A program made the translations under genes and the position numbers. Shown in pieces: positions 14,591 through 27,970 of a stretch of DNA of 52,214 nucleotides. How positions within the stretch are numbered: position 1 is the first letter of the stretch; each line of letters starts with the position of its first letter. The notes below the pieces were generated by a model. The model was not told the origin of the DNA and ran no database searches. It saw only the letters and a list, made by a program, of their open reading frames with translations. Origin of the DNA: a virus; IMG/VR virus record IMGVR_UViG_3300025645_000104, positions 1-52,214 of that record; one strand, written 5' to 3'.

Positions 14591-14634
14591 AACCAATCGC
14601 AATCTTTCAGCGCCTTATCAAATAATAATATGAA

Positions 14635-14652
14635 CTTTCCCTCAGAGGAAAG
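14635..14652. repeat. 18-bp CTTTCC...GGAAAG element, copy 3
   Basis: Identical to copy 2 and also followed by ATTAAAA. It lies between the 219-residue gene and its terminator, four bases before the terminator stem. Confidence 0.8.
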
Positions 14653-14655
14653 ATT

Positions 14656-14732
14656 AAAAAACTTTCTAAGACTTGGCAAGATTTCCCCCAATTTTGCTGA
14701 GTCTTGGAAAACTTTTTAATTTTTTTTTAATT
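14656..14732 (+). terminator. Strong Rho-independent terminator
   Basis: A long imperfect stem joins AAAAACTTTCTAAGACT (from ~14657) to AGTCTTGGAAAACTTTTT (14699-14716), with an inner GCAA/TTGC pairing and a C-rich loop. It is followed by a T8 run after TTTAA. It ends the transcript of the 219-residue gene and separates it from the small-gene cluster. Confidence 0.85.
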
Positions 14733-14798
14733 TATTATTTAAGTTGAGAGTTGAGAAGAGAGAAGATGAGAGAAAACAACTACCTCAAATCACTTGAC

Positions 14799-14825
14799 TT
14801 GAGAGACTATATATGAGACTATAAT
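14799..14825 (+). promoter_or_regulatory. Weak candidate promoter for the small-gene cluster
   Basis: TATAAT (14820-14825) has TTGAGA 15 bases upstream (14799-14804) or TTGACT 20 bases upstream (14794-14799). Neither spacing is ideal. A promoter is expected here because a strong terminator lies just upstream. Confidence 0.4.
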
Positions 14826-14861
14826 AGTACAAGCACCACTAATAACAGTAACACTAACCAA

Positions 14862-14879
14862 CTTTCCCTCAGAGGAAAG
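14862..14879. repeat. 18-bp CTTTCC...GGAAAG element, copy 4
   Basis: Identical to copies 2 and 3, followed by ATAATAAAAG, 26 bp before the 36-residue gene. It lies about 35 bases downstream of the candidate promoter at 14799-14825. Confidence 0.8.
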
Positions 14880-14905
14880 ATAATAAAAGAGAGAGAGAAG
14901 ATACC

Positions 14906-15016
14906 ATGACTAGAACTAGACAACGAAAAATGCAGAGAGAATTACTATCATATAAATATTTATGTTTGTTTGTGTTAGGTTTCTTAATAGGAATCTTTCT
15001 AGGTACTGCGCTATGA
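14906..15016 (+). CDS. 36-residue membrane protein
   Basis: MTRTRQRKMQRELLSYKYL is followed by a hydrophobic span (LCLFVLGFLIGIFLGTAL) to the end: a basic cytoplasmic N-terminus and one C-terminal membrane span. A GAGAGAGAAG purine tract precedes the ATG. The stop shares bases with the next ATG (ATGA at 15013). It is first in a run of coupled small genes; function unknown. Confidence 0.7.
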   Translation: MTRTRQRKMQRELLSYKYLCLFVLGFLIGIFLGTAL

Positions 15017-15231
15017 AATTTGCAGAATACATGGAGACATTCGGTGCAGTTCCTAATACTTTTCAAGGGTTGAGTAACACACGAATACATATTAAGAAAA
15101 GTAAGAACGGAGTGAAGCGAGAATCTCAACCACAACTTTCCTTCAAGGGAAAGTACAGAGTAAGTAAAGCAGTATCAACTGCACCTGTATACGGCAAGAA
15201 CTTAGAGGTACTAAAGAGTTTATTAAAATAG
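15013..15231 (+). CDS. Small basic early protein (72 aa)
   Basis: The start is the ATG overlapping the previous stop (ATGA), giving MKFAEYMETFGAVPNTFQGL, then a basic middle and LEVLKSLLK. The frame is open further upstream, but that part lies over the membrane protein gene. The fifth CTTTCC...GGAAAG element falls inside this gene at 15136-15153, encoding part of QLSFKGKY. Function unknown. Confidence 0.7.
   Translation: MKFAEYMETFGAVPNTFQGLSNTRIHIKKSKNGVKRESQPQLSFKGKYRVSKAVSTAPVYGKNLEVLKSLLK
15136..15153. repeat. 18-bp CTTTCC...GGAAAG element, copy 5 (inside a gene)
   Basis: CTTTCCTTCAAGGGAAAG keeps both six-base arms. The centre differs from the other copies, and it is the only copy inside a coding sequence. 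Confidence 0.65.
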
Positions 15232-15252
15232 AGAGAGAGAGGAGTGTGATGT

Positions 15253-15486
15253 ATGTATGACGATTACGGCAAGACGTTTGAAGATGGAGTTGCCACGTTA
15301 CAATTTCAACAGTGGTTCAACGAAACTTTTTATCCAGATAAACAAATGTTTAACAGGAAAGATTTTAAGCACATGATAAATGTGTTCCAACAAGTAATTA
15401 TAAACTTGTCATTAGCTAAAGGTCGTGCAGTAACTAGGCAAGAAGCGAGTGATTATATAACAAAGAGGTATGTGTATGAGTTGTAA
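15253..15486 (+). CDS. Small early protein (77 aa)
   Basis: MYDDYGKTFEDGVATLQFQQ leads into a helical region (FKHMINVFQQVIINLSLAKG) and a RQEASDYITKRYVYEL end. A GAGGAGTGTGATGTATG start cassette precedes it, a variant of the 15-base start sequence used by the neighbours. No known domain is visible. Confidence 0.7.
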   Translation: MYDDYGKTFEDGVATLQFQQWFNETFYPDKQMFNRKDFKHMINVFQQVIINLSLAKGRAVTRQEASDYITKRYVYEL

Positions 15487-15691
15487 TAATAAAGAAGAGT
15501 ATTCGATACCAACTACCTATTATTATAGGCATGTATCTACCAAGTGTGGTAACACTAAGGCTGATGGTAGACGTGCAATCTGTGATGAGTGCAGAGATAA
15601 TCCAGTTAAGATGAGAGAGATAGAAGATATACAGGTATGCGTAGATAAAGACAACGCATGGTTGCGGAGTGCAGGTTGGGGTGAAATATAA
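15476..15691 (+). CDS. Small zinc-ribbon-like protein (71 aa)
   Basis: Taken from ATG 15476 (MSCNNKEEYSIPTTYYYRHV), because the AAGAGG site is too close to the earlier ATG at 15470. It has cysteines in a CGNTK...CDEC arrangement (STKCGNTKADGRRAICDEC) and one near the end (VCVDKDNAW), suggesting one metal site. It overlaps the previous gene by 11 bases. Possibly a small nucleic-acid or protein-binding zinc protein. Confidence 0.65.
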   Translation: MSCNNKEEYSIPTTYYYRHVSTKCGNTKADGRRAICDECRDNPVKMREIEDIQVCVDKDNAWLRSAGWGEI

Positions 15692-15711
15692 ACACAAGAG
15701 AGGAGTGATGT

Positions 15712-15867
15712 ATGTATAAGATAATAAGATTTACTTTTGACGACAATCATCCAGACAATCACAAAGTAATTAAGACAGGGTTGACTGAGGAAGAAGCACA
15801 AGAACATTGCCAAAGAGATGACACCAGAAAAGAGGGTGTTTGGTTTGATGGCTATACTGAGGAGTGA
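15712..15867 (+). CDS. Small conserved phage protein (51 aa)
   Basis: MYKIIRFTFDDNHPDNHKVI is followed by KTGLTEEEAQEHCQRDDTRK and EGVWFDGYTEE. The layout ...TGLT-EEAQ-HC...WFDGY is one I recognise from short proteins in many unrelated phages; its function is unknown. It starts at the last ATG of a GAGGAGTGATGTATG cassette and its own end (GAG GAG TGA) forms the first part of the next cassette. Confidence 0.75.
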   Translation: MYKIIRFTFDDNHPDNHKVIKTGLTEEEAQEHCQRDDTRKEGVWFDGYTEE

Positions 15868-15870
15868 TGT

Positions 15871-16173
15871 ATGGAAGAAATTCTTAATATGTTTAACATA
15901 ACTGAGAAAGAATTTTATGGTAGAGACAAAGCATTTTTAACTAGAAAAAATCCTTCTTATGCTTGTTCAAACTTTGTAATTGCTTATGGAGATGAAGAGA
16001 ACTATACAAAAGTTTTATACTTTGACGGAGATGGCGGAAGAGCAATCATTCAAAACGAAAGCGAGGTATTTCCGTATGGCTCTAAGGTAGAACTATACGA
16101 ATGTACTTACTGTGATTTTGAATGGTCAGTAATTAAAGAAATTTTTGATATTCTAAAAGAGATAGAGGAGTGA
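15871..16173 (+). CDS. Early protein of unknown function (100 aa)
   Basis: An acidic protein: MEEILNMFNITEKEFYGRDK, then strand-rich sequence (CSNFVIAYGDEENYTKVLYF, KVELYECTYCDFEWSVIKE) and an acidic end. YECTYC could be half a metal site, but no partner pair is seen. Like its upstream neighbour it ends in Glu-Glu at the shared GAGGAGTGATGTATG junction. I do not recognise it. Confidence 0.7.
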   Translation: MEEILNMFNITEKEFYGRDKAFLTRKNPSYACSNFVIAYGDEENYTKVLYFDGDGGRAIIQNESEVFPYGSKVELYECTYCDFEWSVIKEIFDILKEIEE

Positions 16174-16176
16174 TGT

Positions 16177-16809
16177 ATGTATAAGAACCATGCAGTAAAG
16201 TGCCAAGCGTATGCACAACGAAACGCTGACAACTTTGCAGACGTAGTAATGATGGTGTCACTTAGCATACAGCAGAACTGGCTAGGAGTAGGCGATCAGT
16301 TGCAAGATGTAAGACTGAACAAAGAGAACAGCAAGTTTCTGTGGGGTATGAAAGCGACAGCGTACAAATATATTATGACGCACAAGCATAAGATATACGC
16401 AATGATGAAAGCTGTGATGTGCAGTAATCATAATGACGAAGACAAAGCTAAGAGTCTGATGAAAGTATTCTTGCGTATCGAAGGGCTTGGATTAGTAAAG
16501 GCAGGGTTTGTGTGTCAACTTACCTGTGGTCTTGTAGGTTGTATGGATGTACATAACATCAAGGCATATAAGATTGATGAGAAGATGCTGACCTATAACA
16601 AGAAGTTAAGGACAGAGAAAGGTATCAAAGCAAATGAGAAGAAGATAGAGAACTATATTAAACTGTGCCACGACTACGGAACAGAAGAACTTTGGAACGC
16701 ATGGTGTGAATCGTTAGCTCTTAAATCAGATAAGTGGGTTGACGGATTCCATGTGTCTGAGGTACACTATACTTATCTGACAAACAATAACAGGAGGGCA
16801 GTATGTTAG
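16177..16809 (+). CDS. Putative helix-hairpin-helix protein (210 aa)
   Basis: An all-helical protein (MYKNHAVKCQAYAQRNADNF...). Residues ~105-132 read LRIEGLGLVKAGFVCQLTCG then VGCMDVHNIKAYK, which resembles the helix-hairpin-helix and following helix of endonuclease III-type DNA glycosylases (GLG-KAGF...G..D-HN). I see no iron-sulfur cluster cysteine set. It starts at the third GAGGAGTGATGTATG cassette. It may bind DNA as a glycosylase-like or recombination helper. Confidence 0.65.
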   Translation: MYKNHAVKCQAYAQRNADNFADVVMMVSLSIQQNWLGVGDQLQDVRLNKENSKFLWGMKATAYKYIMTHKHKIYAMMKAVMCSNHNDEDKAKSLMKVFLRIEGLGLVKAGFVCQLTCGLVGCMDVHNIKAYKIDEKMLTYNKKLRTEKGIKANEKKIENYIKLCHDYGTEELWNAWCESLALKSDKWVDGFHVSEVHYTYLTNNNRRAVC

Positions 16810-17138
16810 AACCGTTAGCAAAAACGATAGTACAAGAGGTAGTAGATGAAGGTGGATTTTATTCTCTTGAAGTAGATGGTGAAGAGTATCAAGAGATAAC
16901 CAACGATACATCTTTAATATGTAACCAGAAAGACGGAGATAAATATATAGGTGTTGATAACCTAGATATATGTTACATAAATATATACGATAGCAAGAAA
17001 GAGTTTGATGGTTGGATACTTTGGATAGGAGTAAACGATCATGTAGAAAGAATAGGTGATCATACTTTAATGAGTAGTGACTACATTAATATAGATAAAC
17101 TAATGGATAAATGGGAAAAGGAGTATATAAGATTATGA
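16803..17138 (+). CDS. Early protein of unknown function (111 aa)
   Basis: An acidic, strand-rich protein (MLEPLAKTIVQEVVDEGGFY ... GWILWIGVNDHVERIGDHTL) ending in a short Lys/Glu helix. It overlaps the preceding gene by seven bases and has a clear AGGAGGG ribosome site at 16791-16797. Its stop overlaps the next ATG (ATGA). No family recognised. Confidence 0.7.
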   Translation: MLEPLAKTIVQEVVDEGGFYSLEVDGEEYQEITNDTSLICNQKDGDKYIGVDNLDICYINIYDSKKEFDGWILWIGVNDHVERIGDHTLMSSDYINIDKLMDKWEKEYIRL

Positions 17139-17305
17139 AATTTAGAGATGCGATAGCGATAGTAGCACCAAGTAAACTGGCATGGTATGATGCTCAAGAT
17201 AAAGATACTAAGTTTCAAGATGAGTGTAGTGCCTTGTTAGATAACAAAGAACAACTAGTCATTGATGACTACTTTAAAGAGGAGAACAAAAATAATGATG
17301 AATGA
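17135..17305 (+). CDS. Small early protein (56 aa)
   Basis: The start is the ATG that overlaps the previous stop (ATGA), giving MKFRDAIAIVAPSKLAWYDA. Then comes an acidic half with a CSALLDNKEQLVIDDYFKEE end. The longer frame upstream is unlikely. It is part of a coupled string of small genes; function unknown. Confidence 0.65.
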   Translation: MKFRDAIAIVAPSKLAWYDAQDKDTKFQDECSALLDNKEQLVIDDYFKEENKNNDE

Positions 17306-17549
17306 TTTATTAGAAGAAATGCCTAGAGCAGGATCACCTGAAGACAGAGGTAGTGCTGATCGTTACTATTATAGAAGGTACAGTCCTCATTACTATGAGT
17401 ATCCTTTTGGTAAAGGTGAGTCACCACGTATTGAAGAAGATCGTATGACACCTGAACAGATTGCCTTGTATAAGAAAGGTTGGGATAACGAAGACGAACG
17501 TAAAGAATTTGACTATGAAGAATTTATAATAGAGGATGAGGAAGAATGA
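17298..17549 (+). CDS. Small conserved phage protein with SADRYYYRRY motif (83 aa)
   Basis: The start is one of two consecutive ATGs (17295 or 17298), overlapping the previous stop. The sequence has PRAGSPEDRGSADRYYYRRY, then PHYYEYPFGKG and MTPEQIALYKKGWDNEDERK, and ends in Glu/Asp. The Gly-Ser-Ala-Asp-Arg-Tyr-Tyr motif with the Tyr-rich stretch is one I recognise from short proteins of many phages; its function is unknown. Confidence 0.72.
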   Translation: MNDLLEEMPRAGSPEDRGSADRYYYRRYSPHYYEYPFGKGESPRIEEDRMTPEQIALYKKGWDNEDERKEFDYEEFIIEDEEE

Positions 17550-17767
17550 CAATGAGAAAACTACCTTTTAATTGTAGAGTAGGTTATAAACCTCAAGAAG
17601 TAGCCAATAGATTTACTGGTGAAAAGGTAACGATACCTTCTGATGCTGTCGCAGTTTACGATACCATCATGGGTGCTGAACTTTTTAGAGATTACGACAC
17701 AGTTCGTAAAGGTTTAGATTGGTTCATTAAACATGAGCCAGATGCATATATGATATTATTAGACTAA
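17546..17767 (+). CDS. Small early protein (73 aa)
   Basis: MTMRKLPFNCRVGYKPQEVA continues with a strand-rich VTIPSDAVAVYDTIMGAELF and a helical end (GLDWFIKHEPDAYMILLD). The ATG overlaps the previous stop (ATGA). A second ATG six bases later is an alternative start. No function known. Confidence 0.7.
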   Translation: MTMRKLPFNCRVGYKPQEVANRFTGEKVTIPSDAVAVYDTIMGAELFRDYDTVRKGLDWFIKHEPDAYMILLD

Positions 17768-17777
17768 GGAGAAAGGT

Positions 17778-17909
17778 ATGAATGAAGAAGAGATATACTT
17801 AAACACCTTGATAGCAGAGGCTGAGTTACAAATGACAATAGGGTATACTGCATTTGGAATGTGTGTTATGCTTGTTGTTTCTTTATGGATATATTGGAGA
17901 GTGAGATGA
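17778..17909 (+). CDS. 43-residue membrane protein
   Basis: MNEEEIYLNTLIAEAELQMT is an acidic N-terminal helix. A single membrane span follows (GYTAFGMCVMLVVSLWIYW) with a short basic tail (RVR). An AGGAGAAAGG ribosome site precedes the ATG, and the stop overlaps the next gene (ATGA at 17906). It may be one of several small inner-membrane proteins of the early block, as in host takeover, but its role is unknown. Confidence 0.7.
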   Translation: MNEEEIYLNTLIAEAELQMTIGYTAFGMCVMLVVSLWIYWRVR

Positions 17910-18208
17910 ACAAGAGTGATTTAATGAAAGTGTTCTTTACTTTCACAGATGATAACGCTGAGTTAATGTTTAACTATGAAGATGTGAACGGAAAAGAAAC
18001 AACAGATAGAAAAGTTAAACCTTTCAAGATAGAGTATCAAGAAGATGATGATGAAGTATTAATTACAGGACTATGTGCTGTTGCTACTATGCCTTCTGGA
18101 ATTATTGATTGGCAACAAAGAAAGTTTTATTTAAATAATATGTCTTGCATTAGAGTGTATAAAGAGATACGCTATGCAGAGATGTTAAATTCAAAAGCTT
18201 GGAGTTAA
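17906..18208 (+). CDS. Early protein of unknown function (100 aa)
   Basis: Taken from the ATG overlapping the membrane-protein stop, giving MNKSDLMKVFFTFTDDNAEL. The rest is strand-rich (VKPFKIEYQEDDDEVLITGL, CAVATMPSGIIDWQQRKFYL) with a basic C-terminus. A longer frame from 17861 would run through the membrane-protein gene. No family recognised. Confidence 0.68.
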   Translation: MNKSDLMKVFFTFTDDNAELMFNYEDVNGKETTDRKVKPFKIEYQEDDDEVLITGLCAVATMPSGIIDWQQRKFYLNNMSCIRVYKEIRYAEMLNSKAWS

Positions 18209-18210
18209 GT

Positions 18211-18759
18211 ATGAACATATTTTATTTTTATGATAGCCCTGTTAAATCAGCAGAGGCACAACCTGATAAGATGTTAGTGAAGATGCCATTGGAGACAGCG
18301 CAGATGTTATGTACTGCACACAGAGAACTAGATGGTGACGAGTATGCAGACAAGGTAGGTTTGTACAAACGAGCATACTGGAATCATCCGTGTACAATAT
18401 GGGCTAGGGAATGTAATGAAAATTACTCGTGGTTATATGCTCATTTTCTAGCACTAGGAATGGAATACACTTACCGATATGGTAAGGAACATGCAAGTAT
18501 TATTAAGTTAGCTAAACCTTTAATGCAGTTCCCTAAAAATATAAAGAGTGGTCAGATGACAACAGTTGCACAAGCTATGCCAGATCAATACAAGAATGAC
18601 GATCCTATCAAAGCATATCGTGACTACTGTATCAATGAGAAGCACTATGCTAAGTGGGAGAAAGGTAGAGACAAACCTAAGTGGTGGGTGAAGGTGAAGG
18701 AAGAGCTTGATGAAGCGCAAGCAATAGATGATTACTACATGTCAATAGCGGAGGTGTGA
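18211..18759 (+). CDS. Conserved phage protein with NHPCTIWARE motif (182 aa)
   Basis: The start is ATG 18211 with GGAG eight bases upstream; the open frame begins earlier at a TTG. MNIFYFYDSPVKSAEAQPDK is followed by LVKMPLETAQMLCTAHRELD, WNHPCTIWARECNENYSWLY, HFLALGMEYTYRYGKEHASI and an acidic end. The order K-P-ETAQML-TAH...NHPC-IWARE-NY-WL is one I recognise from a protein family in many phages; its biochemical role is not known to me. It may be soluble and all-helical. Confidence 0.75.
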   Translation: MNIFYFYDSPVKSAEAQPDKMLVKMPLETAQMLCTAHRELDGDEYADKVGLYKRAYWNHPCTIWARECNENYSWLYAHFLALGMEYTYRYGKEHASIIKLAKPLMQFPKNIKSGQMTTVAQAMPDQYKNDDPIKAYRDYCINEKHYAKWEKGRDKPKWWVKVKEELDEAQAIDDYYMSIAEV

Positions 18760-18935
18760 TGAAGAAACCTAAAGGCAAGACAGTCATGGTTAGGTATCCA
18801 GAAGATGATACAACTTGGCACAAAGCTACAGTTGGTACGCTACTGAGCATACAGTTTACTGCTGACTATGAGGTAGATGGTAAAGAAACACATGGGTTTT
18901 TCTTTTATAAAGATTATAAATTAACTTGGAGATAG
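18759..18935 (+). CDS. Small early protein (58 aa)
   Basis: MKKPKGKTVMVRYPEDDTTW is followed by GTLLSIQFTADYEVDGKETH and a FFFYKDYKLTWR end, a small strand-rich protein. The GAGGTG ribosome site lies inside the previous gene, whose stop (TGATG) overlaps this start. Function unknown. Confidence 0.68.
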   Translation: MKKPKGKTVMVRYPEDDTTWHKATVGTLLSIQFTADYEVDGKETHGFFFYKDYKLTWR

Positions 18936-18937
18936 AT

Positions 18938-19114
18938 ATGAACTTAAAGATAGGACAAGAGGTAGATGGTAGAACCATAGATCGCATAACTATGGATAGA
19001 GATACAAGAGACATGACTGTTTGGTTTGATAAAGACTATCCTGATGATGGAGTTATAGTAGTCAGACACAACGAGTCTATTGATAAAGTTTTAAATCATA
19101 AATGGGAGAAGTAG
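18938..19114 (+). CDS. Small early protein (58 aa)
   Basis: The start is ATG 18938 (MNLKIGQEVDGRTIDRITMD), with GGAGA upstream. The earlier TTG would overlap the previous gene. It continues MTVWFDKDYPDDGVIVVRHN, a small strand-rich sequence. It follows its neighbour by two bases. No function known. Confidence 0.66.
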   Translation: MNLKIGQEVDGRTIDRITMDRDTRDMTVWFDKDYPDDGVIVVRHNESIDKVLNHKWEK

Positions 19115-19116
19115 AG

Positions 19117-19326
19117 ATGCAAGACAGATACGAAATACTATTGCAAATTGAACAGGTATTGAGTAAGCTAGAACGAACTGTACCTGCAGGGTTACGTAAA
19201 GAGATAGGTATTTCAAAAGCGTTAGACAATGTAGGTAAGTTAATAGATGGTGAAACTGAAAAGAAACATGAAGAGTTAGAGAAAGAATACGCAATGATGC
19301 AACAAGCAATAGAAGAGATGGAGTGA
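19117..19326 (+). CDS. Small coiled-coil early protein (69 aa)
   Basis: Start ATG 19117 (MQDRYEILLQIEQVLSKLER), two bases after the previous stop and preceded by GGGAGAAG. It is almost wholly helical, with EKKHEELEKEYAMMQQAIEE at the end, which predicts a coiled coil and oligomerisation. Function unknown. Confidence 0.68.
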   Translation: MQDRYEILLQIEQVLSKLERTVPAGLRKEIGISKALDNVGKLIDGETEKKHEELEKEYAMMQQAIEEME

Positions 19327-19329
19327 GAG

Positions 19330-19476
19330 ATGAATAAAAAATTAAAAGATATAACAACAGAGATTAGTAAGTTAAATATAAAAGAACAAAGACAGATAGC
19401 TATTATTATTCTAGCATCTGTACTGAGTGATGAATCTTTAAAAGAAGTATTAGACATAGTAGATTACGAGGGTTAA
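19330..19476 (+). CDS. Small helical early protein (48 aa)
   Basis: MNKKLKDITTEISKLNIKEQ is followed by a hydrophobic helix (IAIIILASVLSDESLKEVL) and an acidic end. GGAGTGAGAG precedes the ATG, and the gene starts three bases after the previous stop. The hydrophobic stretch is short and flanked by charges, so it is probably soluble. Function unknown. Confidence 0.6.
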   Translation: MNKKLKDITTEISKLNIKEQRQIAIIILASVLSDESLKEVLDIVDYEG

Positions 19477-19526
19477 TTGTAGTTACCTATATAAAACTAC
19501 AAACATAAGAAGAAGGAGATATAAAG

Positions 19527-19706
19527 ATGGTTAAGATATTTGACGGTACAGCAAACAAGAAGTTCTATCACGTTAATGTGTTAGGCTTTAAGTTCAGAGT
19601 TGCGACAAACACTAGAACTTTTAGTAAGTTTGGCTCTTACCTAACAGGTAGAGGTCGAGTGTTTAACTTTGGTAGACAGTACTTGTGCTTTATACCTAAG
19701 TCGTAA
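19527..19706 (+). CDS. Small basic early protein (59 aa)
   Basis: MVKIFDGTANKKFYHVNVLG continues FKFRVATNTRTFSKFGSYLT and GRGRVFNFGRQYLCFIPKS. It has a strong AGAAGGAGAT ribosome site. It is very basic and aromatic-rich, as expected for a small nucleic-acid binding or inhibitor protein. It is followed by a structured leader region. Function unknown. Confidence 0.66.
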   Translation: MVKIFDGTANKKFYHVNVLGFKFRVATNTRTFSKFGSYLTGRGRVFNFGRQYLCFIPKS

Positions 19707-19709
19707 GAC

Positions 19710-19860
19710 AAAAGTCTCCCTAACAATTTAATGCATGGGTTGTTAGATGACTATAAAAGCGCACATGCTAGTGTTGACAGGCACTATAAAAACCGATAGT
19801 TATGTTGCTGTTGGAGGAGTTGGTAGTCATCTTCGGAACTAAAAAACTACCATATTTTTT
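19710..19860 (+). ncRNA. Structured leader with terminator: candidate attenuator
   Basis: Pairing arms visible by eye: CTAACAA (19720-19726) with TTGTTAG (19740-19746); GATGACTA (19746-19753) with TAGTCATC (19824-19831), enclosing TAGTG/CACTA (19769-19773, 19782-19786); and TGGTAGT (19821-19827) with ACTACCA (19846-19852), followed by a T6 run (19855-19860), i.e. a terminator. The last two pairings share 19824-19827 and cannot both form, as in a riboswitch or attenuator. It precedes the 139-residue gene. Ligand or regulator unknown; no known riboswitch class recognised. Confidence 0.5.
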
Positions 19861-19881
19861 AACAACAAAGAGGAAAGTAAA

Positions 19882-20301
19882 ATGGCTACACAGATAAGAA
19901 AGTTTGAACAAGATGCAATCGTTGATACTATTGCTGATAAGATAGAGACAGAGTTAAAGAGTAAGAGACAAGAGATGATTAAAGATGATAGAGACTACGA
20001 GTCTATGTTATCAGATTCAAATCAGATGAAAGCTTTGAGTAAAGATATTGATGATCTAACAGAGAAAAGAAACTTACTGCATGGTAGTATCTATGAACGT
20101 GTCCAAGAGTGGAACGCTAGTAACAATTCTTATGCACTAGATATAAATAGGTATCAAGGAGTCTTAAGTTTAAATCCAAAGCTTAACTATTATCATTTAA
20201 GAGAAAAGATAGGTAACAAGGTTGCGATAGCACTCTTACCTAAAGATGCAAAAGAGAACATGGATACTATTATATCCAACATAACTAAGGAGTTTGTATA
20301 A
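19882..20301 (+). CDS. Early protein of unknown function (139 aa)
   Basis: A charged, mainly helical protein: MATQIRKFEQDAIVDTIADK, with KALSKDIDDLTEKRNLLHGS as a coiled segment and a C-terminal ITKEFV. It lies just after the attenuator-like leader with an AGAGG ribosome site, and its stop overlaps the next ATG (TAATG). I do not recognise it, but a regulated leader suggests its dosage matters. Confidence 0.7.
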   Translation: MATQIRKFEQDAIVDTIADKIETELKSKRQEMIKDDRDYESMLSDSNQMKALSKDIDDLTEKRNLLHGSIYERVQEWNASNNSYALDINRYQGVLSLNPKLNYYHLREKIGNKVAIALLPKDAKENMDTIISNITKEFV

Positions 20302-20582
20302 TGCAAATAAAATTTGATTACTATGACATGCAAGAAGCTATTCAGTTATTAGTTAAGGAAAAGTTTGACATGGATATAGATTTAGAAGATCTATCACCAC
20401 ACGACTATCCTAGTATTGAATATCGAGAACGTGTGTTGGTATATAAAAAACATAAGAACGGAAAAGAAGTTAAAGATAAACACGGCTGTCGTGAAGTAGA
20501 TTGGGATAACACTGAATACGTTACTAAGCATATAGAGTTTGATGATAGTTCCGACATAACTTTTTATGTAGGTAAGGACTAA
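20301..20582 (+). CDS. Early protein of unknown function (93 aa)
   Basis: MQIKFDYYDMQEAIQLLVKE is followed by EYRERVLVYKKHKNGKEVKD and an acidic aromatic end. It has a mixed helix-strand look and many charged residues. Its ATG overlaps the preceding stop (TAATG) and the next gene starts two bases after its stop. Function unknown. Confidence 0.68.
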   Translation: MQIKFDYYDMQEAIQLLVKEKFDMDIDLEDLSPHDYPSIEYRERVLVYKKHKNGKEVKDKHGCREVDWDNTEYVTKHIEFDDSSDITFYVGKD

Positions 20583-20584
20583 CA

Positions 20585-20758
20585 ATGAGTATAGATATTA
20601 AAGAGTTAGACGTAGTACTTAAAGACTTTGATGAACAGTTAGAGAGTGAAAATTTTGGACTGTACATTGATGCTTATGTACCACCTAAAGAAGAAGCTAA
20701 CACTAAAGGAGATGAATATGTTTATAATAATTTAGATGATTTAGATTTTAATAGTTGA
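20585..20758 (+). CDS. Small acidic early protein (57 aa)
   Basis: MSIDIKELDVVLKDFDEQLE, FGLYIDAYVPPKEEANTKGD and an Asp-rich end (NNLDDLDFNS). It is strongly acidic, like small phage proteins that mimic DNA or bind host enzymes, but this is only composition. Its TGA lies inside the -35 box of the promoter at 20755-20783. Confidence 0.66.
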   Translation: MSIDIKELDVVLKDFDEQLESENFGLYIDAYVPPKEEANTKGDEYVYNNLDDLDFNS

Positions 20759-20783
20759 ATTTAAAATTTAGATATGGTATAAT
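20755..20783 (+). promoter_or_regulatory. Promoter ahead of the 76-residue gene
   Basis: TTGAAT (20755-20760), 17-bp AT-rich spacer, TATAAT (20778-20783). The -35 box contains the stop codon of the preceding gene. It gives a short leader before the gene at 20815. Confidence 0.75.
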
Positions 20784-20814
20784 CTTATAAGTATTATAAG
20801 GAAAGAGAAAACAA

Positions 20815-21045
20815 ATGATTAATAATAATGTTATAGACTTTAAAAACTTTAAAGCAGAGAAAGATGATAAAGAATATATTGTTAGTCTTTATGAAACTAA
20901 ACAATATAATTTTGTAGTTAGAGCTAACAGCGGAGAAGAAGCTGAGAATATTATAAGTAAAAGATACGAGTCAGGTGAGGTGATGCTTGAAGATAACTTA
21001 TCTGTCTTTACATTTGAAACAGTAGCAACAGAAAATAACAGTTGA
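20815..21045 (+). CDS. Small early protein (76 aa)
   Basis: MINNNVIDFKNFKAEKDDKE then YIVSLYETKQYNFVVRANSG and EEAENIISKRYESGEVM. AAGGAAAGAG lies before the ATG. The pattern of strands followed by a helix with EEAE resembles small phage proteins of unknown function. It has its own promoter, and the promoter of the SSB-like gene starts at its stop codon. Confidence 0.7.
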   Translation: MINNNVIDFKNFKAEKDDKEYIVSLYETKQYNFVVRANSGEEAENIISKRYESGEVMLEDNLSVFTFETVATENNS

Positions 21046-21070
21046 CATAGGAAGAGGACTAGTGTATAAT
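21042..21070 (+). promoter_or_regulatory. Consensus sigma70 promoter of the SSB/replication genes
   Basis: TTGACA (21042-21047), 17-bp spacer, TATAAT (21065-21070), an exact consensus match. The -35 box again contains the preceding gene's stop codon (TGA 21043-21045). It drives the leader and the SSB-like, primase-helicase and polymerase genes. Confidence 0.9.
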
Positions 21071-21076
21071 ATACAA

Positions 21077-21222
21077 TTCAAATCACGAACAAGATATGTA
21101 GCCCTCATGTATCACCTTCCTTTTTATCTTGTTTGTTCGCTGATTGAGCGAGTAAGTTTCTGGTCTTACGATAATATAAAACCAGATCTAATTTTTATAG
21201 CAACGAAAGAGGTAAAATAAAA
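21077..21222 (+). promoter_or_regulatory. mRNA leader of the SSB-like gene with an H-type pseudoknot
   Basis: The ~146-base leader has two structures. CGAACAAGATA (21086-21096) pairs with TATCTTG...GTTCG (21125-21139). Further on, GTAAG (21152-21156) pairs with CTTAC (21165-21169), and TCTGGT in that loop (21159-21164) pairs with ACCAGA (21181-21186), forming an H-type pseudoknot whose third loop is A/T-rich (21170-21180). It ends 36 bases before the ATG, with an AAAGAGG ribosome site between. T4 gene 32, an SSB gene, is controlled by a leader pseudoknot that nucleates SSB binding; similar control here is an inference. Confidence 0.6.
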
Positions 21223-21639
21223 ATGATGTACGCAACAGGAAAAGCAATGTGGGCTAACGTGTCTGTACCTAACACACGTTTTGAGCCACATAAATACATG
21301 GTTACTATCTTGACTGACGAAGACACAGCATCTGACTTAGAAGCAGCAGGTCTTAAACAGTCTACCGATAGAGCAGGCAATGCTAAGTATGATGAGCCTG
21401 CGTTCATGTTCAGTAAGACTGCGATACGCAAGAAAGATGGTGTCGCCAACAAAGCTCCAAAGCTAATTGATGCTGATGGTAATCCTTTAGATTGTTTGAT
21501 TGGTAATGGTTCTAACATTACTGTAAAGGTTAGACCATACAGCACAGCTTATGGTACGTTTGGAGAGTTAGTCGCTGTTAAGGTTAACGAGCTTGTTGAC
21601 TATGAAGATGGCGGTGACTTGGATAACGAGGAGTTTTAA
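21223..21639 (+). CDS. Single-stranded DNA-binding protein (T7 gp2.5-like)
   Basis: This 138-residue protein begins with GKAMWANVSVPNTRFEPHKY and YMVTILTD strands, a second strand region (IGNGSNITVKVRPYSTAYG, FGELVAVKVNELVDY) like an OB fold, and an acidic tail ending in an aromatic residue (DLDNEEF), the usual SSB feature for contacting polymerase and helicase. It lies immediately before replication genes in the same transcript. It should coat unwound DNA at the fork. The first of two ATGs is used as start. The SSB identity is from pattern and position. Confidence 0.78.
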   Translation: MMYATGKAMWANVSVPNTRFEPHKYMVTILTDEDTASDLEAAGLKQSTDRAGNAKYDEPAFMFSKTAIRKKDGVANKAPKLIDADGNPLDCLIGNGSNITVKVRPYSTAYGTFGELVAVKVNELVDYEDGGDLDNEEF

Positions 21640-21640
21640 G

Positions 21641-21910
21641 ATGGTTGATGAACAGAAACCTTTTATTACTATTGATGATGTGCAGATTTCAGTAGAGGAT
21701 TTACCTGAAGAAGCACAAGGTATCTTTGGTAGGATACAAAGATTGAATCAGAAGAAAGCAACTCTTGCGTTAGACATGGAGGAGATAGACGCAAGCCTTA
21801 ACTTTTTTTCAGGTAGGATAATTAGTATTGTTAATGAAGATGCTAAACCAACAGGAGAAGCTGATGAAGAATTGGTAGAAGGAGAAGACGCAGTAAAATC
21901 TAACAATTAA
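21641..21910 (+). CDS. Acidic coiled-coil protein beside SSB (89 aa)
   Basis: Start ATG 21641 (MVDEQKPFITIDDVQISVED), one base after the SSB-like stop, with GAGG upstream. A helical heptad region (QGIFGRIQRLNQKKATLALD) follows and the end is acidic (EADEELVEGEDAVKSNN). Similar small acidic proteins are common beside phage replication genes. Function unknown. Confidence 0.68.
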   Translation: MVDEQKPFITIDDVQISVEDLPEEAQGIFGRIQRLNQKKATLALDMEEIDASLNFFSGRIISIVNEDAKPTGEADEELVEGEDAVKSNN

Positions 21911-21920
21911 ACTTAACAAG

Positions 21921-21977
21921 AGAGGCAGTACCATTCAAGAGAACATAAGAGATAAGATGGTAACTTATCCGCCTCTT
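21921..21977 (+). other. Nested stem-loop between the SSB group and primase-helicase
   Basis: AGAGGC (21921-21926) pairs with GCCTCT (21971-21976), and inside it GATAAG (21951-21956) pairs with CTTATC (21964-21969). No long T-run follows (TAATTTT only), so it may be an RNA-processing or stability element, or a weak terminator lowering downstream expression. An AAAAGGAG ribosome site for the primase follows. Confidence 0.45.
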
Positions 21978-21997
21978 AATTTTAAAAGGAGCAAAGC

Positions 21998-23683
21998 ATG
22001 AGGGCAGAGTTTGACGAAAAAGAATGGGAGTTGGTACACCAACCTTGTCCTTTGTGTGACAGCAGTGATGCTGTTGGTATCAATAAAGACAGATCAGCAA
22101 AATGTTTTAGCTGTGATGAGTTTATGCCTAACTATGATGATGCAAGCAAAGGAAAAGATATGGAAGTAAATAAAATTAAACCACTTGTTCAGCAACAACA
22201 ACAAGTAAATGATATAGCAGGTACTTATTCTGCGTTGACAGATAGAAAGATAAAGTTAGAGACTGCAAAAAAATATGGTGTGAAAGCACAACACGATTTA
22301 CAAGGCAGAGTAACTAAGCATTTCTATCCTTACTACAACGGACATGAGCTATCAGCAACCAAGTGTCGTAACGTAAATGATAAAGGTTTCTTTCTACAAG
22401 GAACGTATAGTGACACAGGTTTATTCGGACAGCAGTTATTTAAAAGCGGTAAGTATATAACGATTACCGAAGGCGAATGTGACGCAATGGCAGCTTACGA
22501 ATTACTAGGCAGTAAGTGGGCTGTAGTTTCTATTAAGCGCGGTGCGGCAGGTGCAGTACGAGATATAAAAGAAAGCCTTGAGTTCTTTGATGACTTTGAA
22601 AACATTATCATTGCATTTGATAATGACAAAGCAGGTAAAGAAGCAAGCACTAAAGTAGCTAGATTGTTTAAGCCTAGCAAGGCTCGTATTATGACGTTGC
22701 CTACAGGGTGTAAAGATCCTAACGATATGCTACGGCAGAACAAACACAAGCAGTTTACTGAAGCTTGGTGGTCTGCTAAAACGTACACTCCATCTGGAGT
22801 TATCAATGTCTCTGAACAACGTGAGAAGTTTCACAACAGAGAGAAGAAAGAGAGCGTACCTTACCCATACGAAGGTCTTAACAAGAAGCTGTATGGTATG
22901 AGACAAGGTGAGCTTGTTACTCTTACAGGTGGTACAGGTCTTGGTAAGTCTAGTGTTACGAGAGAGATAGAACATTGGCTAATTAACCAGACTAAAGATA
23001 ACGTAGGTGTCATTGCACTTGAAGAAGATTGGCGCAGAACTATTGATGGTATCTTATCTATCGAAGCTAACGCTAGGTTATATATAGATCAGGTACGAGA
23101 AAGATATTCTAAAGAAGAATTAGATAAGCTCTTTGATATTCTATATGATGGACAGAATAAGAATAGAGTATGGGTACATGCTCATTTTGGAGCTAACGAG
23201 CTAGACGAAATCTTTTCTAAGATAAGGTTTATGATCATAGGTTGTGGCTGTAAATGGGTAGTAGTAGATCACTTGCACATGCTTGTCAGCGCATCTACTG
23301 AAGGAGATGAAAGACGTACCATTGATTCTATTATGACTAAGCTTAGATCTATAGTAGAAGAAACAGGTGCAGGTCTTATTCTTGTATCACACTTGCGCAG
23401 AATTGATGGTAACAAAGGACATGAGAACGGTATCGAAGTAAACCTATCTCACCTTAGAGGTAGTCAAAGTATTGCACAGCTTAGTGATTGTGTATTGGCT
23501 CTTGAACGTAACCAACAGTCAGACGATCATCAAGAGTCACAGACAACTAAGGTTCGTGTATTAAAGTCTAGGTACACAGGTGATGTTGGTATGGCTTGTC
23601 ATTTATTATATGATAACGAAACAGGTAGACTTAAAGAAATATCTAACGAAGATTTAGAAGTAGAAAATAACGAAGGATTTTAA
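21998..23683 (+). CDS. Primase-helicase (T7 gp4-like)
   Basis: Domains in order: a zinc-binding primase site (C17-P-L-C20 with C36-F-S-C39); a TOPRIM region (ITEGECDAMAAYELLG, and IIAFDNDKAGKEAS ~70 residues later); then a RecA-type helicase with Walker A GGTGLGKS (residues 311-318), Walker B-like CKWVVVDHLHMLV and an ILVSHLRRIDG segment. It unwinds the fork and makes primers, so no separate primase is needed. Length (561 residues) matches T7 gp4. It lies between the SSB group and DNA polymerase, two bases before the latter. Confidence 0.95.
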   Translation: MRAEFDEKEWELVHQPCPLCDSSDAVGINKDRSAKCFSCDEFMPNYDDASKGKDMEVNKIKPLVQQQQQVNDIAGTYSALTDRKIKLETAKKYGVKAQHDLQGRVTKHFYPYYNGHELSATKCRNVNDKGFFLQGTYSDTGLFGQQLFKSGKYITITEGECDAMAAYELLGSKWAVVSIKRGAAGAVRDIKESLEFFDDFENIIIAFDNDKAGKEASTKVARLFKPSKARIMTLPTGCKDPNDMLRQNKHKQFTEAWWSAKTYTPSGVINVSEQREKFHNREKKESVPYPYEGLNKKLYGMRQGELVTLTGGTGLGKSSVTREIEHWLINQTKDNVGVIALEEDWRRTIDGILSIEANARLYIDQVRERYSKEELDKLFDILYDGQNKNRVWVHAHFGANELDEIFSKIRFMIIGCGCKWVVVDHLHMLVSASTEGDERRTIDSIMTKLRSIVEETGAGLILVSHLRRIDGNKGHENGIEVNLSHLRGSQSIAQLSDCVLALERNQQSDDHQESQTTKVRVLKSRYTGDVGMACHLLYDNETGRLKEISNEDLEVENNEGF

Positions 23684-23684
23684 T

Positions 23685-25415
23685 ATGGATTTAGTATTTG
23701 ATATAGAAACAGACGATCTTAAAGCAACAAAGATACATTGTATAGTGTGTCAAGATCCTAACTCAGGAGAGATCTTTAAGTTTAAACCTAATCAGATTGA
23801 TGAGGGTGTTAAATTTTTAAGTACCGCTGATAGATTAATAGGACACAATATTGTTGGCTTTGATATTCCTGTTGTTAAAAAACTAACAGGTACTGATCTG
23901 TCTCATATCGAAGCATTAGATACGTTAGTGTTGTCACGACTGCTTAATCCTATCCGAGCAGGTGGTCATAGTCTTGAAGCTTGGGGATACAAATTAGAAT
24001 ATCCTAAGATTTCTTTTGAAGAGTACAAAGATTATTCTGCAGAAATGTTGAAGTATTGTGTCAGAGATGTGCAGTTAAATACTTTAGTATTCAAGAGCTT
24101 ACGTTTAGAATCTAAACAGTTTTCTAAGGAAAGTGTATTGCTAGAACATGGTGTTGCAAAGATAATGAAGGAGCAAGAAGAGAATGGATTTAAGTTTGAT
24201 AGTTACTCTGCTGAGATATTGCTCGCTAATCTGAGAGAAAGAAAACAAAAGATAGAAGATGAAGTACACAATACATTTAAACCTAAATGGGTAGATGATA
24301 AAATAGTTACACCTTATATTAAGAAAGATGGTCAGTTATCCAAACGTGGATTGTCTGATGAAGAGTACGATAACTGTCTGTGGTTTGGTAACACAGATCC
24401 TTTCATGCGTAGAAAGTTAGTTGACTTTAATCTTGGCAGTCGTAAACAGATTGGAGAATACTTGATTGACTTTGGTTGGAAGCCAGAAAGATTTACACCT
24501 ACTGGTCAGCCTATTGTAGATGAAAAAACTTTATCAGAAGTTACACACATACACGAAGCTAGTCTCATTGCAGAGTTTCTTTTGTTACAGAAACGTATAG
24601 CACAGGTTGATTCGTGGGTTAAAGCAGTTGAAGAAGATGGTAGAATACATGGCTTTGTTATACCTAACGGTGCTATCACAGGTCGCATGACACATCGTAG
24701 TCCAAACACAGCGCAGATTCCTAGCTTACGTCAGCCTTATGGCAAGGAGTGTCGTGCATGTTGGACAGTAGACGAAGGTAATGTCTTACTAGGTATTGAT
24801 GCGTCAGGTTTAGAACTAAGAATGTTATCTCACTATATGAAAGACGAGGAGTTTACAAATGAAATACTTAACGGAGACATACATACCGCTAATCAAAAGC
24901 TTGCAGGACTTAAATCAAGAGATCAGGCAAAGACATTCATCTATGCGCTTATGTACGGAGCAGGAGATGAGAAGCTTGGAAGCGTGGTTGGTGGAAATAA
25001 ATCAACTGGTAGAAAGTCTAGACAACTGTTCTTTGATAATAAACCATCATTTAAAACTCTTAGAGATAGAGTTACGAGAGCAGCAGCAAGAGGCTTCGTC
25101 AAAGGATTAGATGGTAGAAAATTATTTATACGCAACGCACACTCAGCTTTAAATACTTTATTACAAGGAGCAGGTGCGATAGTTATGAAGCAAGCACTTG
25201 TTATATTTGACAAGCATTTACGTGAAGCAAACCTAAAGTATAAGTTTGTTGCTAACATCCATGATGAGTGGCAAATGGAAGTACCTAAACAAACAGCAGA
25301 ACTAATAGGTGCAATGGGTGTTCGATCTATTATAGAAGCAGGACAAGTTTTTAATATGAACTGTCCTTTAGATGGTGAATATCAATATGGAGGGAACTGG
25401 AGTGAAACACACTGA
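23685..25415 (+). CDS. Family A DNA polymerase with 3'-5' exonuclease
   Basis: The exonuclease has DIETD (residues 6-10), a GHNIVGFDIP second motif and YCVRDVQLN third motif. The polymerase has motif A DASGLELRML (catalytic Asp 372), motif B RDQAKTFIYALMYG and motif C HDEW (Asp 527). Length is 576 residues, a little short of T7 gp5 (704). No thioredoxin-binding insertion is obvious, and no DnaJ-like insertion as in the HMO-2011 polymerase. It ends SETH just like the next gene, through a shared 13-base repeat. Confidence 0.95.
   Translation: MDLVFDIETDDLKATKIHCIVCQDPNSGEIFKFKPNQIDEGVKFLSTADRLIGHNIVGFDIPVVKKLTGTDLSHIEALDTLVLSRLLNPIRAGGHSLEAWGYKLEYPKISFEEYKDYSAEMLKYCVRDVQLNTLVFKSLRLESKQFSKESVLLEHGVAKIMKEQEENGFKFDSYSAEILLANLRERKQKIEDEVHNTFKPKWVDDKIVTPYIKKDGQLSKRGLSDEEYDNCLWFGNTDPFMRRKLVDFNLGSRKQIGEYLIDFGWKPERFTPTGQPIVDEKTLSEVTHIHEASLIAEFLLLQKRIAQVDSWVKAVEEDGRIHGFVIPNGAITGRMTHRSPNTAQIPSLRQPYGKECRACWTVDEGNVLLGIDASGLELRMLSHYMKDEEFTNEILNGDIHTANQKLAGLKSRDQAKTFIYALMYGAGDEKLGSVVGGNKSTGRKSRQLFFDNKPSFKTLRDRVTRAAARGFVKGLDGRKLFIRNAHSALNTLLQGAGAIVMKQALVIFDKHLREANLKYKFVANIHDEWQMEVPKQTAELIGAMGVRSIIEAGQVFNMNCPLDGEYQYGGNWSETH
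25401..25413 (+). repeat. 13-bp direct repeat, left copy
   Basis: AGTGAAACACACT spans the end of the polymerase gene and the GTG start of the next gene. An identical copy is at 25882-25894. Each copy carries the last codons and stop of one gene and the GTG start of the next. Confidence 0.9.
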
Positions 25416-25896
25416 TATAACTAAACATGATATACAACAGGCAGAGATACTTGCTAAAGAAATGGGAGAATTAAAAAATTCTATAACAAAAGGACAGGGA
25501 AATATACATGGATTTTTAGGAGAAATAATTGTAGCTAAATTTTTAGATATAAAAATATCTAACACTTATGATTACGATATGATATTTAAGGATATAAAAA
25601 TAGATGTTAAAACTAAACGAGTAACTACTCCTCCTAGAGATTATTATGAGTGTTCAGTTGCTGCTCTTAATACTAAGCAACGCTGTAATATATATGTATT
25701 TACACGCATTTTAAAAGACAGGACTCAGGGATGGATATTAGGATATATAAATAAAGAAGACTATTTTAAAAAAGCTACCTTCCTTAAAAAAGGAGAAGTA
25801 GATCCTTCTAATAATTGGAAAGTTTCAACAGACTGTTATAACCTTCCAATAAAAGAATTAAATAACATAGAGGAGCTGTTAAGTGAAACACACTAA
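25402..25896 (+). CDS. Putative PD-(D/E)xK-type nuclease (164 aa)
   Basis: The start is GTG 25402, with GGAGGG six bases upstream, overlapping the polymerase stop; the longer frame from ATG 25372 is less likely. Residues NIHGFLGEIIVAKF supply a Glu helix, and YDYDMIFKDIKIDVKTKR matches the Asp...D-V-K-T-K core of this nuclease fold. The following strands (WILGYINKEDYF) fit too. It could be an endonuclease, perhaps a mobile one. Codon use looks richer in A (AAA, ATA) than in the polymerase. Confidence 0.7.
   Translation: MKHTDITKHDIQQAEILAKEMGELKNSITKGQGNIHGFLGEIIVAKFLDIKISNTYDYDMIFKDIKIDVKTKRVTTPPRDYYECSVAALNTKQRCNIYVFTRILKDRTQGWILGYINKEDYFKKATFLKKGEVDPSNNWKVSTDCYNLPIKELNNIEELLSETH
25882..25894 (+). 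repeat. 13-bp direct repeat, right copy
   Basis: AGTGAAACACACT, identical to 25401-25413. It makes this gene also end in Ser-Glu-Thr-His and the next begin with GTG AAA CAC ACT. The span between the copies is one gene. Confidence 0.9.
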
Positions 25897-26416
25897 TAAA
25901 GATTGTATTAAATGCGGAGTAAAATTAACAGACGATAATTGGTATATCGCTGCAAAAAAAATAAAAATGTATCAATGTTCTTCGTGTTATCAAAAAATCG
26001 CACTTAAGTTTTCAAAAAAAACAAATCCAGAAAGAATGTATGTTAACGGTAAGTATGTACCAAAAGACCATCCTTTATATAAAGCAGGCAGATATAAAAC
26101 TTTTGAAGGTGCAGCCTTCTCATCTTTATCTGGCTATGAAAAATCTAACGAAGGTTATGTATATGTTATAACTAATCCTTGTTGGAAAGGTTGGGTTAAA
26201 GTTGGTATGGCTATTGATGCAGAGGACAGATGTAAACAGTATCAAACCTCTAGTCCTTTTAGAGACTACGCATTAAGGTTTAAGAAATACTTTGACGATA
26301 GACGAAGTGCTGAACAACAAGCACATAAGAAAATAAAAAATATTTGTAAAGATAACAATGGAGAATGGTTTAAAGTTTCTATATCAGAAGCTAAAGAAAT
26401 CATACAGTCAATATGA
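25883..26416 (+). CDS. T5orf172/GIY-YIG-like endonuclease with zinc ribbon (177 aa)
   Basis: It starts at GTG 25883. An N-terminal zinc-ribbon-like part has C-IKC and CSSC cysteine pairs (CIKCGVKLTDDNWYI, YQCSSCYQK). The C-terminal half has GYVYVITNPCWKGWVKVGMA, DRCKQYQTSSPFRDYALRF and HKKIKNICKDNNGEWFKVS, which match the T5orf172/GIY-YIG family. Such proteins are often homing endonucleases or DNA modification-associated nucleases. It overlaps the exonuclease gene by four bases. Confidence 0.8.
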   Translation: MKHTNKDCIKCGVKLTDDNWYIAAKKIKMYQCSSCYQKIALKFSKKTNPERMYVNGKYVPKDHPLYKAGRYKTFEGAAFSSLSGYEKSNEGYVYVITNPCWKGWVKVGMAIDAEDRCKQYQTSSPFRDYALRFKKYFDDRRSAEQQAHKKIKNICKDNNGEWFKVSISEAKEIIQSI

Positions 26417-27273
26417 AAAAACTAGATACGTTAGTAGAAGATATATACGACAAGCTATCTGTACTATCAGATGGTGAGTCACTAAACATAGACGATAAAA
26501 CTATTGATGCTTTTGGTGAGTCAATGAAAGAAGTTCTTTCTCATTGGGCTAACCCTAGACCAAGAGATAGTGGTACGTTACGCATGTCTAACATTGGTAA
26601 ACCTATGCGTCAGCTATGGTATGATATGCGTTCAGAAAGTAAGACAACTGAAAGAATTAAACCCTCTGTCTTTATTAAATTTCTATACGGACATCTACTT
26701 GAAGAGGTACTTCTGTTGTTAGTTAAGATAGCAGGACACAAAGTTACCGATGAACAAAAAGAAGTTTCTGTATCTGGTATTAAAGGACACATGGACTGCG
26801 TTATTGATGGTGAAGTAGTGGATATTAAGACAGCCTCTAGTTTCGCGTTTAAGAAGTTTTATAATAAAACCCTAGCCGAAGATGATATATTCGGTTATCT
26901 CCCTCAGTTGGCAGGCTACGAGGCTGCTATGGGTACAAACAAGGGTGGTTTCTTAGCCATGAACAAAGAGTCAGGTGAAATAGCATTATATAGACCTGAT
27001 TCTTTCGATAAACCTGACATAAAAAACAAAATAAAAACAGTTAAAAAACTTATAAAGGTAGACACACCACCTGATTTATGTTATAATCCTGTACCAGATG
27101 GAGCAGCAGGTAACATGAAGATAGGTAAAGGATGTACTTGGTGTAGACATAAGTTTGAATGTCATGCAGATGCTAACGAAGGCAAAGGATTACGAGTGTT
27201 CAAATATGCAGATAGATATTCTTATTTAACTAGAGTAGTAAAAGAACCTAGAGTATTGGAAGTTACTAAATGA
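26413..27273 (+). CDS. RecB/Cas4-like exonuclease (PD-(D/E)xK)
   Basis: The core is GHMDCVIDGEVVDIKTASSF with the catalytic Asp, D-I-K motif and following helix FGYLPQLAGYEAAM, as in Cas4/RecB exonucleases of phages. A C-terminal cluster CTWCRHKFECHADAN (Cys-x2-Cys, x5, Cys-x-His) could hold a metal or iron-sulfur cluster; an early Cys partner is not obvious. It likely replaces the T7 gp6 exonuclease for end resection or removal of host DNA. It overlaps its neighbours by four bases on each side. Confidence 0.85.
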   Translation: MKKLDTLVEDIYDKLSVLSDGESLNIDDKTIDAFGESMKEVLSHWANPRPRDSGTLRMSNIGKPMRQLWYDMRSESKTTERIKPSVFIKFLYGHLLEEVLLLLVKIAGHKVTDEQKEVSVSGIKGHMDCVIDGEVVDIKTASSFAFKKFYNKTLAEDDIFGYLPQLAGYEAAMGTNKGGFLAMNKESGEIALYRPDSFDKPDIKNKIKTVKKLIKVDTPPDLCYNPVPDGAAGNMKIGKGCTWCRHKFECHADANEGKGLRVFKYADRYSYLTRVVKEPRVLEVTK

Positions 27274-27557
27274 ACGGAAGAAAAGCAAAAGCACTAAGAA
27301 AACGTAGTAAAGAACTATTAGTAGAATGGTTACGTTCTGTTGTTCCTGAAGGAGAAGATCTTACTAAGATACATACAGGAAACATACACGAGTTTATGCC
27401 TGCTGAAACACACATCTATGCTAATCGTAAGTTTTTATTAAGTGCTTATTCTTTACGTTGGTTTTATAAAAAATTAAAACGTAACCCTGATGCAACTTTA
27501 TACGAGTTACTAAACGAACAGAATGTAAAATCTAGTACTGGTCATTGGGTTATCTAA
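27270..27557 (+). CDS. Small basic protein by endonuclease I (95 aa)
   Basis: A basic N-terminus (MNGRKAKALRKRSKELLVEW) and a C-terminal SLRWFYKKLKRNPDATLYEL. A small protein in this position is common in marine podoviruses, but its function is unknown. The ATG overlaps the exonuclease stop (ATGA) and its stop shares a base with the next ATG (TAATG). Confidence 0.7.
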   Translation: MNGRKAKALRKRSKELLVEWLRSVVPEGEDLTKIHTGNIHEFMPAETHIYANRKFLLSAYSLRWFYKKLKRNPDATLYELLNEQNVKSSTGHWVI

Positions 27558-27970
27558 TGGCTAAAAGAAAACCTAGAAAAGTTAGACCAAGAGAAAAGAA
27601 CGTACCAAAAGGATACGATAGTAAGTGGGAGTACGAGTTGCATAAAGGTATATTAAATAACTGGAGTCATCACACTAACAAAGTACCTTATGTAGTAGAG
27701 CATACTTACGAACCTGACTTTGAAAAAGATAAAATTATTATAGAAGCAAAGGGTAGGTTCTGGGATCACGCTGAGTACAGTAAGTATTTGTGGATTAGAA
27801 AGTCATTACCACATACAATGGAACTTGTGTTTATATTTCAAAAGCCATACGCTCCAATGCCTGCTGCTAAGAAAAGAAAAGACGGAACAAAACGAACACA
27901 TGCTGAATGGGCTGAAGCAAATAATTTTAAATGGTATACTGAAGATACCTTACCGAAGGAGTGGAAGTAA
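27557..27970 (+). CDS. Holliday-junction endonuclease I (T7 gp3-like)
   Basis: Start ATG 27557, overlapping the preceding stop (TAATG). Residues KGYDSKWEYELHKGILNNW, then YVVEHTYEPDFEKDKIIIEA and KGRFWDHAEYSKYLWIR match T7 endonuclease I: Glu in the first helix, Asp in EPDF, and E-x-K (IEAKG). It resolves branched DNA during replication, recombination and packaging. Length 137 residues, close to T7 gp3 (149). Confidence 0.88.
   Translation: MAKRKPRKVRPREKNVPKGYDSKWEYELHKGILNNWSHHTNKVPYVVEHTYEPDFEKDKIIIEAKGRFWDHAEYSKYLWIRKSLPHTMELVFIFQKPYAPMPAAKKRKDGTKRTHAEWAEANNFKWYTEDTLPKEWK

Follow-up and report, generated by a model that had tools for sequence, protein, structure and literature searches.

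A pseudoknot-bearing RNA upstream of a marine phage ssb gene with predicted antisense pairing to the primase-helicase translation start

In control of the ColIb-P9 repZ type, pairing by an RNA loop controls translation of a plasmid replication protein, and a pseudoknot that forms with sequence beside the repZ start activates repZ. Among phage antisense RNAs, P22 sar blocks initiation of ant translation and lambda OOP acts on cII, both being transcribed opposite their targets with long complementarity (PMC12197685). Lambda PreS is a trans-acting phage small RNA that acts on the host gene dnaN in an Hfq-dependent manner (PMC12197685). In the T4 gene 32 operator, an unstructured region containing UUAAA/UAAA elements lies downstream of a pseudoknot (PMC535899).

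The window analysed here, a stretch of viral DNA of 52,214 nucleotides, carries a structured RNA element at about 21085-21186, of which an H-type pseudoknot forms only a part. As in the ColIb-P9 repZ type, loop pairing is proposed to govern translation of a replication protein, but the pseudoknot here forms locally, and the start that the loop would cover is about 890 nt distant. Like P22 sar and lambda OOP, the element is proposed to control a phage mRNA through base pairing; in contrast to both, it lies on the same strand as its predicted target, upstream in the same operon, and its complementarity is confined to a short loop. It shares with lambda PreS the aim at a replication gene, whereas its predicted target is the phage's own primase-helicase rather than a host gene reached through Hfq. 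The element resembles T4 gene 32 in placing an H-type pseudoknot of similar size within the 5′ leader of a phage gene for SSB; an A/U-rich stretch comes next in the window's group (PMC535899). Unlike T4 gene 32, the locus encodes a gp2.5-like SSB, the element stands apart from ssb in most relatives, and its antisense hairpin is complementary to a different gene.

The element begins downstream of a predicted consensus sigma-70-type promoter, TTGACA-17-TATAAT (21042-21070, + strand, 12/12 match), with a predicted transcript start at about 21077, just 5′ of the first hairpin, P1. Relatives of group A, which includes the window, have an 11-12/12 promoter match at the same place relative to the element. 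The only other perfect matches of this type within 12500-32000 are two divergent 12/12 promoters at 12913-12995 (12941-12913 on the − strand, 12967-12995 on the + strand). The first gene after the element encodes an SSB of 138 aa (21223-21639, + strand), whose probable gp2.5-like identity rests on its match to PHROG 112 (E 7e-8); a structure prediction bearing on its presumed OB fold gave a poor model (pLDDT 39). The SSB shares 32-36% identity with those annotated in Pelagibacter phages HTVC103P, HTVC104P and HTVC115P, and the window's polA is 49-50% identical to theirs. A small ORF (21641-21910, + strand; start picked by inspection inside ORF 21593-21910) separates ssb from a DNA primase-helicase gene (21998-23683, + strand) with Toprim and DnaB-like C-terminal domains by Pfam and a match to PHROG 239 (E 4e-178). 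The order 3′ of the element is always ssb, small ORF, primase-helicase and polA. The primase-helicase start lies about 890 bases downstream of the P1 loop, two genes past ssb.

The initial annotation had drawn attention to the pseudoknot at 21152-21186 (+ strand), and both interlocking stems are present there. Stem 1 pairs GTAAG (21152-21156) with CTTAC (21165-21169), and stem 2 pairs TCTGGT (21159-21164) with ACCAGA (21181-21186). Loop 1 is TT, loop 2 is absent, and loop 3 is an A/T-rich stretch of 11 nt, GATAATATAAA (21170-21180). The spacing it had given also holds, with exactly 36 nt between the pseudoknot end at 21186 and the ssb ATG at 21223. An exhaustive scan of the window for H-type pseudoknots of similar dimensions returned 12 overlapping matches at about seven sites, against a mean of about three in dinucleotide shuffles. 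One such fold in 52 kb is unremarkable by chance, and the fold alone proves little.

Covariation in related phages had been named beforehand as the check on this fold, and the pseudoknot passes it. It is kept in all aligned leaders of close relatives, which were drawn from IMG/VR, and about 100 related marine viral contigs contain it as well. A pattern search contributed about 50 further real copies from such contigs together with a few chance matches, and a second pattern added more copies. These patterns fixed part of the pseudoknot sequence while leaving open the varying outer pairs of stem 1 and the second pair of stem 2, so that invariant columns are partly a product of the search. Both stems show compensatory changes across 53 distinct homologues: 90.1% of pair cells are standard pairs, and double-sided changes occur in 62 cells at five pairs. 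The covariation score is 0.285 versus 0.156 in shuffles, with 0 of 500 shuffles as good, and controls with slid partners reach at most 0.066. A chance pseudoknot, which the frequency of such folds would not exclude, is ruled out by this covariation. Across the family, stem 1 has 5-7 pairs (GUAAG/CUUAC, GUGCAAG/CUUGUGC, GCUAG/CUAGU, GCGAG/CUCGU); only five pairs of stem 2 are general (core CNGGU/ACCNG), and the sixth varies.

Upstream of the pseudoknot, P1 is a 12-bp helix between ACGAACAAGATA (21085-21096) and TATCTTGTTTGT (21125-21136), both on the + strand. Its 28-nt loop contains a conserved 20-mer, GCCCTCATGTATCACCTTCC (21101-21120), that is identical in nearly all close relatives and occurs exactly in 35 viral contigs, all of which were also recovered by the ssb search. 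The arms of P1 differ in sequence among lineages with their complementarity kept, and the same holds for a second predicted hairpin, P2 (21137-21151, + strand), formed by TCGCT (21137-21141) and AGCGA (21147-21151). P2 is optional, being absent in group B and L121 and replaced elsewhere by different complementary stems or none. The general layout is a sigma-70 promoter, P1 with its conserved loop, the optional P2, and the pseudoknot.

The P1 loop presents two C/U-rich motifs that match the primase-helicase translation start. Motif 1, GCCCUCAUGU (21101-21110, + strand), is complementary to GCAUGAGGGC across the AUG; its predicted partner GCATGAGGGC (21996-22005, + strand) spans the ATG at 21998-22000 and would form 10 bp with one U.G. 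Motif 2, UUCCUUUU (21117-21124, + strand), is predicted to pair with the primase-helicase Shine-Dalgarno sequence AAAAGGAG (21984-21991, + strand). The CCCU bases of the loop are 0.96-1.0 unpaired. The target thus comprises the Shine-Dalgarno sequence and start codon in the window, and the Shine-Dalgarno sequence in most relatives.

This complementarity to a translation initiation region is specific in the window. If the antisense of the loop is set aside, the window holds a single copy of CATGAGGGC, against 0.13 expected. At the primase start the loop duplex has an energy of −25.4 kcal/mol. No other ORF start goes below −20.7, and, apart from the loop's own site, the primase start outscores every other one of the 6,954 windows taken from both strands of the 52 kb. 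Only 1 of 500 shuffled loops reached −25.4 at the primase start, and 24 of 500 reached it at the best of all ORF starts. The primase start ranks first in 7 of the 8 group A loci exceeding 7 kb and second in the eighth, with 0-1 of 705-1,365 windows as good. Its rank among sites outside group A is no better than roughly the top few percent; a C-rich loop is expected to match many Shine-Dalgarno sites. Judged by predicted pairing, the element's conserved match is strongest at the primase-helicase start rather than at the ssb start. The primase start ATGAGGG is also present in HTVC103P and HTVC104P, which have no copy of the element, and the target sequence is thus not specific to RNA-bearing phages; its conservation taken by itself does not count as evidence of pairing.

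A separate resemblance concerns the loop stretch ATCACCTTCCTTTT (21111-21124), which is similar to the 16S rRNA 3′ end (ATCACCTCCTTT). Mimicry of the anti-Shine-Dalgarno 3′ end of 16S rRNA, suggested by the likeness of the loop to AUCACCUCCUUU, was considered and set aside in favour of the primase start, which the loop fits more specifically.

In other lineages a loop-target pairing of 7-13 bp is kept with matched changes. Group B would pair GCCCUCCUU with GAGGAGGGC, L338 would pair UAGCCCUCC with GGAGGGCUA, and L344 would pair UAGCCCUC(U)CUAAA with UUUAGGAGGGCUA in 13 bp around one bulge; L306 would form 13 bp around one mismatch, and L141 is similar. GGAGGG targets often accompany GCCCUCC loops (group B and L338), and UGAGGG targets accompany GCCCUCA loops. 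Exceptions exist: the pairing is lost in L301, and L304, L315 and L165 pair poorly. Own loop-target pairs scored better than swapped pairs in the ten lineages first examined (permutation p 0.0025), which had been chosen before the weaker lineages were found. The values from the enlarged set are therefore preferred (p 0.011 for all 19 pairs, 0.011 without L301 and 0.029 with one pair per lineage), and all these p values are indicative only because the lineages share ancestry and are not independent. They come from the second of two designs, which used shorter, core-anchored stretches and was adopted after the first, with longer target windows, had given a noisy outcome and no clear difference between own and swapped pairs. 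The loop core GCCCUC is nearly invariant and was also the handle by which many elements were found, which places much of the complementarity outside the covariation test. Taken together, these comparisons give moderate support, with exceptions, for co-variation of the RNA and its presumed target across lineages.

We consider it somewhat better than an even chance, judging from sequence comparison, that the leader is a structured antisense riboregulator that represses primase-helicase translation in cis or in trans. The sigma-70 promoter would yield an RNA beginning with P1, whose two loop motifs would pair with the primase-helicase start, occlude it and block ribosome binding, so that primase-helicase would be held down relative to SSB. 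The pairing partners could sit in cis on one operon transcript, or the leader RNA could be made or processed separately and act in trans. The single promoter match 5′ of the element in the window, with no strong match before ssb, makes cis pairing over about 890 nt natural, whereas the separate promoters of group C make trans action more natural there. The pseudoknot, directly 3′ of P1/P2, most likely contributes structure or stability, as a domain that would display the loop. A P1-type hairpin with a UAGCCCUCAACUA loop in L151 (about 1360-1430) is followed by no detectable pseudoknot, while the primase start GAGGGCTAACATG is retained; this suggests that the pseudoknot is not strictly needed. 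If the antisense reading is correct, a structured RNA family outside Rfam would be present in many marine phage contigs, and these phages would place their own replication machinery under antisense pairing from inside the same operon. It offers a testable model for the balance of SSB and primase-helicase in these phages.

The initial annotation had instead proposed a case convergent with the autogenous control of T4 gene 32. In such a scheme SSB would bind the pseudoknot, spread over the A/U-rich leader and block its own ribosome-binding site. In the window the pseudoknot does lie in the ssb leader, as in T4 gene 32. Throughout group A it ends 33-42 nt before ssb and an A/U-rich stretch follows, an arrangement reminiscent of the T4 operator with its pseudoknot and unstructured UUAAA/UAAA region (PMC535899). 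Such a mechanism predicts close cis conservation to ssb, whereas across relatives the pseudoknot may stand as little as 33 nt or as much as about 1,050 nt from the gene and is not generally contiguous with the ssb ribosome-binding region. Part of group B keeps 40-43 nt. In most relatives at least 92 nt, and up to about 1,050 nt, separate the two, and a promoter match or an ORF often intervenes: the gap is about 96 nt in the rest of group B and 92 nt in L207, both with an intervening promoter match, 173-226 nt in group D, where a 10/12 match intervenes, 333 nt in L106, and 323-1,047 nt in group C. Members of group C usually show a promoter match for the element itself and have an ORF ahead of ssb, for the most part accompanied by another promoter match. 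The ssb mRNA made from an intervening promoter would lack the pseudoknot, which is kept even in these relatives, and control by SSB has no need of a conserved loop that matches primase. As a conserved function, autoregulation of this kind is thus not borne out, and we regard it as unlikely; an added SSB contact may exist where the spacing is 33-43 nt, in the window's group and part of group B. If the antisense reading holds, a gp32-like appearance would here hide a different mechanism. A combined scheme, in which the RNA family would couple SSB level to primase-helicase synthesis, with the hairpin silencing, SSB binding at the pseudoknot altering that silencing and the modules of group C (below) extending the controller, appears quite improbable.

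The pairing potential of the loop would also fit a small RNA that acts in trans on several Shine-Dalgarno sites, in the phage or the host, primase-helicase being only one of its targets. The C/U-rich loop, the promoter match of the element itself in group C and the GAGGGYTA that recurs in the start region of a 90-aa ORF adjoining the RNA in that group are consistent with this; the group A pairing, which covers the AUG, codons 2-3 and a second motif, goes beyond what general anti-Shine-Dalgarno pairing needs, and we hold the multi-target reading to be rather unlikely. In many lineages the pseudoknot is followed by a U-rich tract, which in group B is present where ssb has its own promoter and absent where it has none. 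This might be expected if pseudoknot and U-tract together acted as a transcription terminator or attenuator that determined how much transcription reads through into the replication operon, with the loop match of secondary importance. Such a role is very doubtful, given that the 5-7 nt between stem and U-tract are unlike an intrinsic terminator and that group A ssb appears to depend on read-through. The small-molecule switch also raised in the initial annotation found no support. An H-type pseudoknot with an A-rich loop 3 would suit a metabolite-sensing riboswitch, whereas the distance to ssb is variable, with promoters or ORFs intervening, and no Rfam riboswitch was matched at the gathering threshold or at E up to 10; such sensing is highly improbable.

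More broadly, Rfam gave no matches above the gathering score in the window or in 16 relatives, and those at E up to 10 were weak chance matches only. No paper describing the element was found in a literature search of partial coverage. DNA searches of a phage isolate collection returned no homologue, and the element is absent from the HTVC103P, HTVC104P and HTVC115P loci. Host or prophage copies were considered and set aside, as the single match in a scan of genome contigs had surroundings without the rest of the element.

The loci of group C show additional features. The start region of their 90-aa ORF (e.g. L140, L151, L155) reads GAGGGCTATATG or GAGGGTTA, which is complementary to the loop UAGCCCUC and may be a second target of the loop. 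Between the pseudoknot and this ORF lie further blocks, M2-M9, of 21-106 nt each (e.g. L114, L140, L145, L154). These occur in shuffled order, with about 29 module orders among 63 distinct downstream segments, and the chain is absent in the window. About 100-220 nt upstream of ssb in L075 (HTVC115P), a stretch somewhat like module M3 (TACTGTAATCCT...AGGAGTTGTATG...GGTTGGAGTAGTACCAACA) was noted by eye only; the modular RNA may thus have a relative in this cultured phage.
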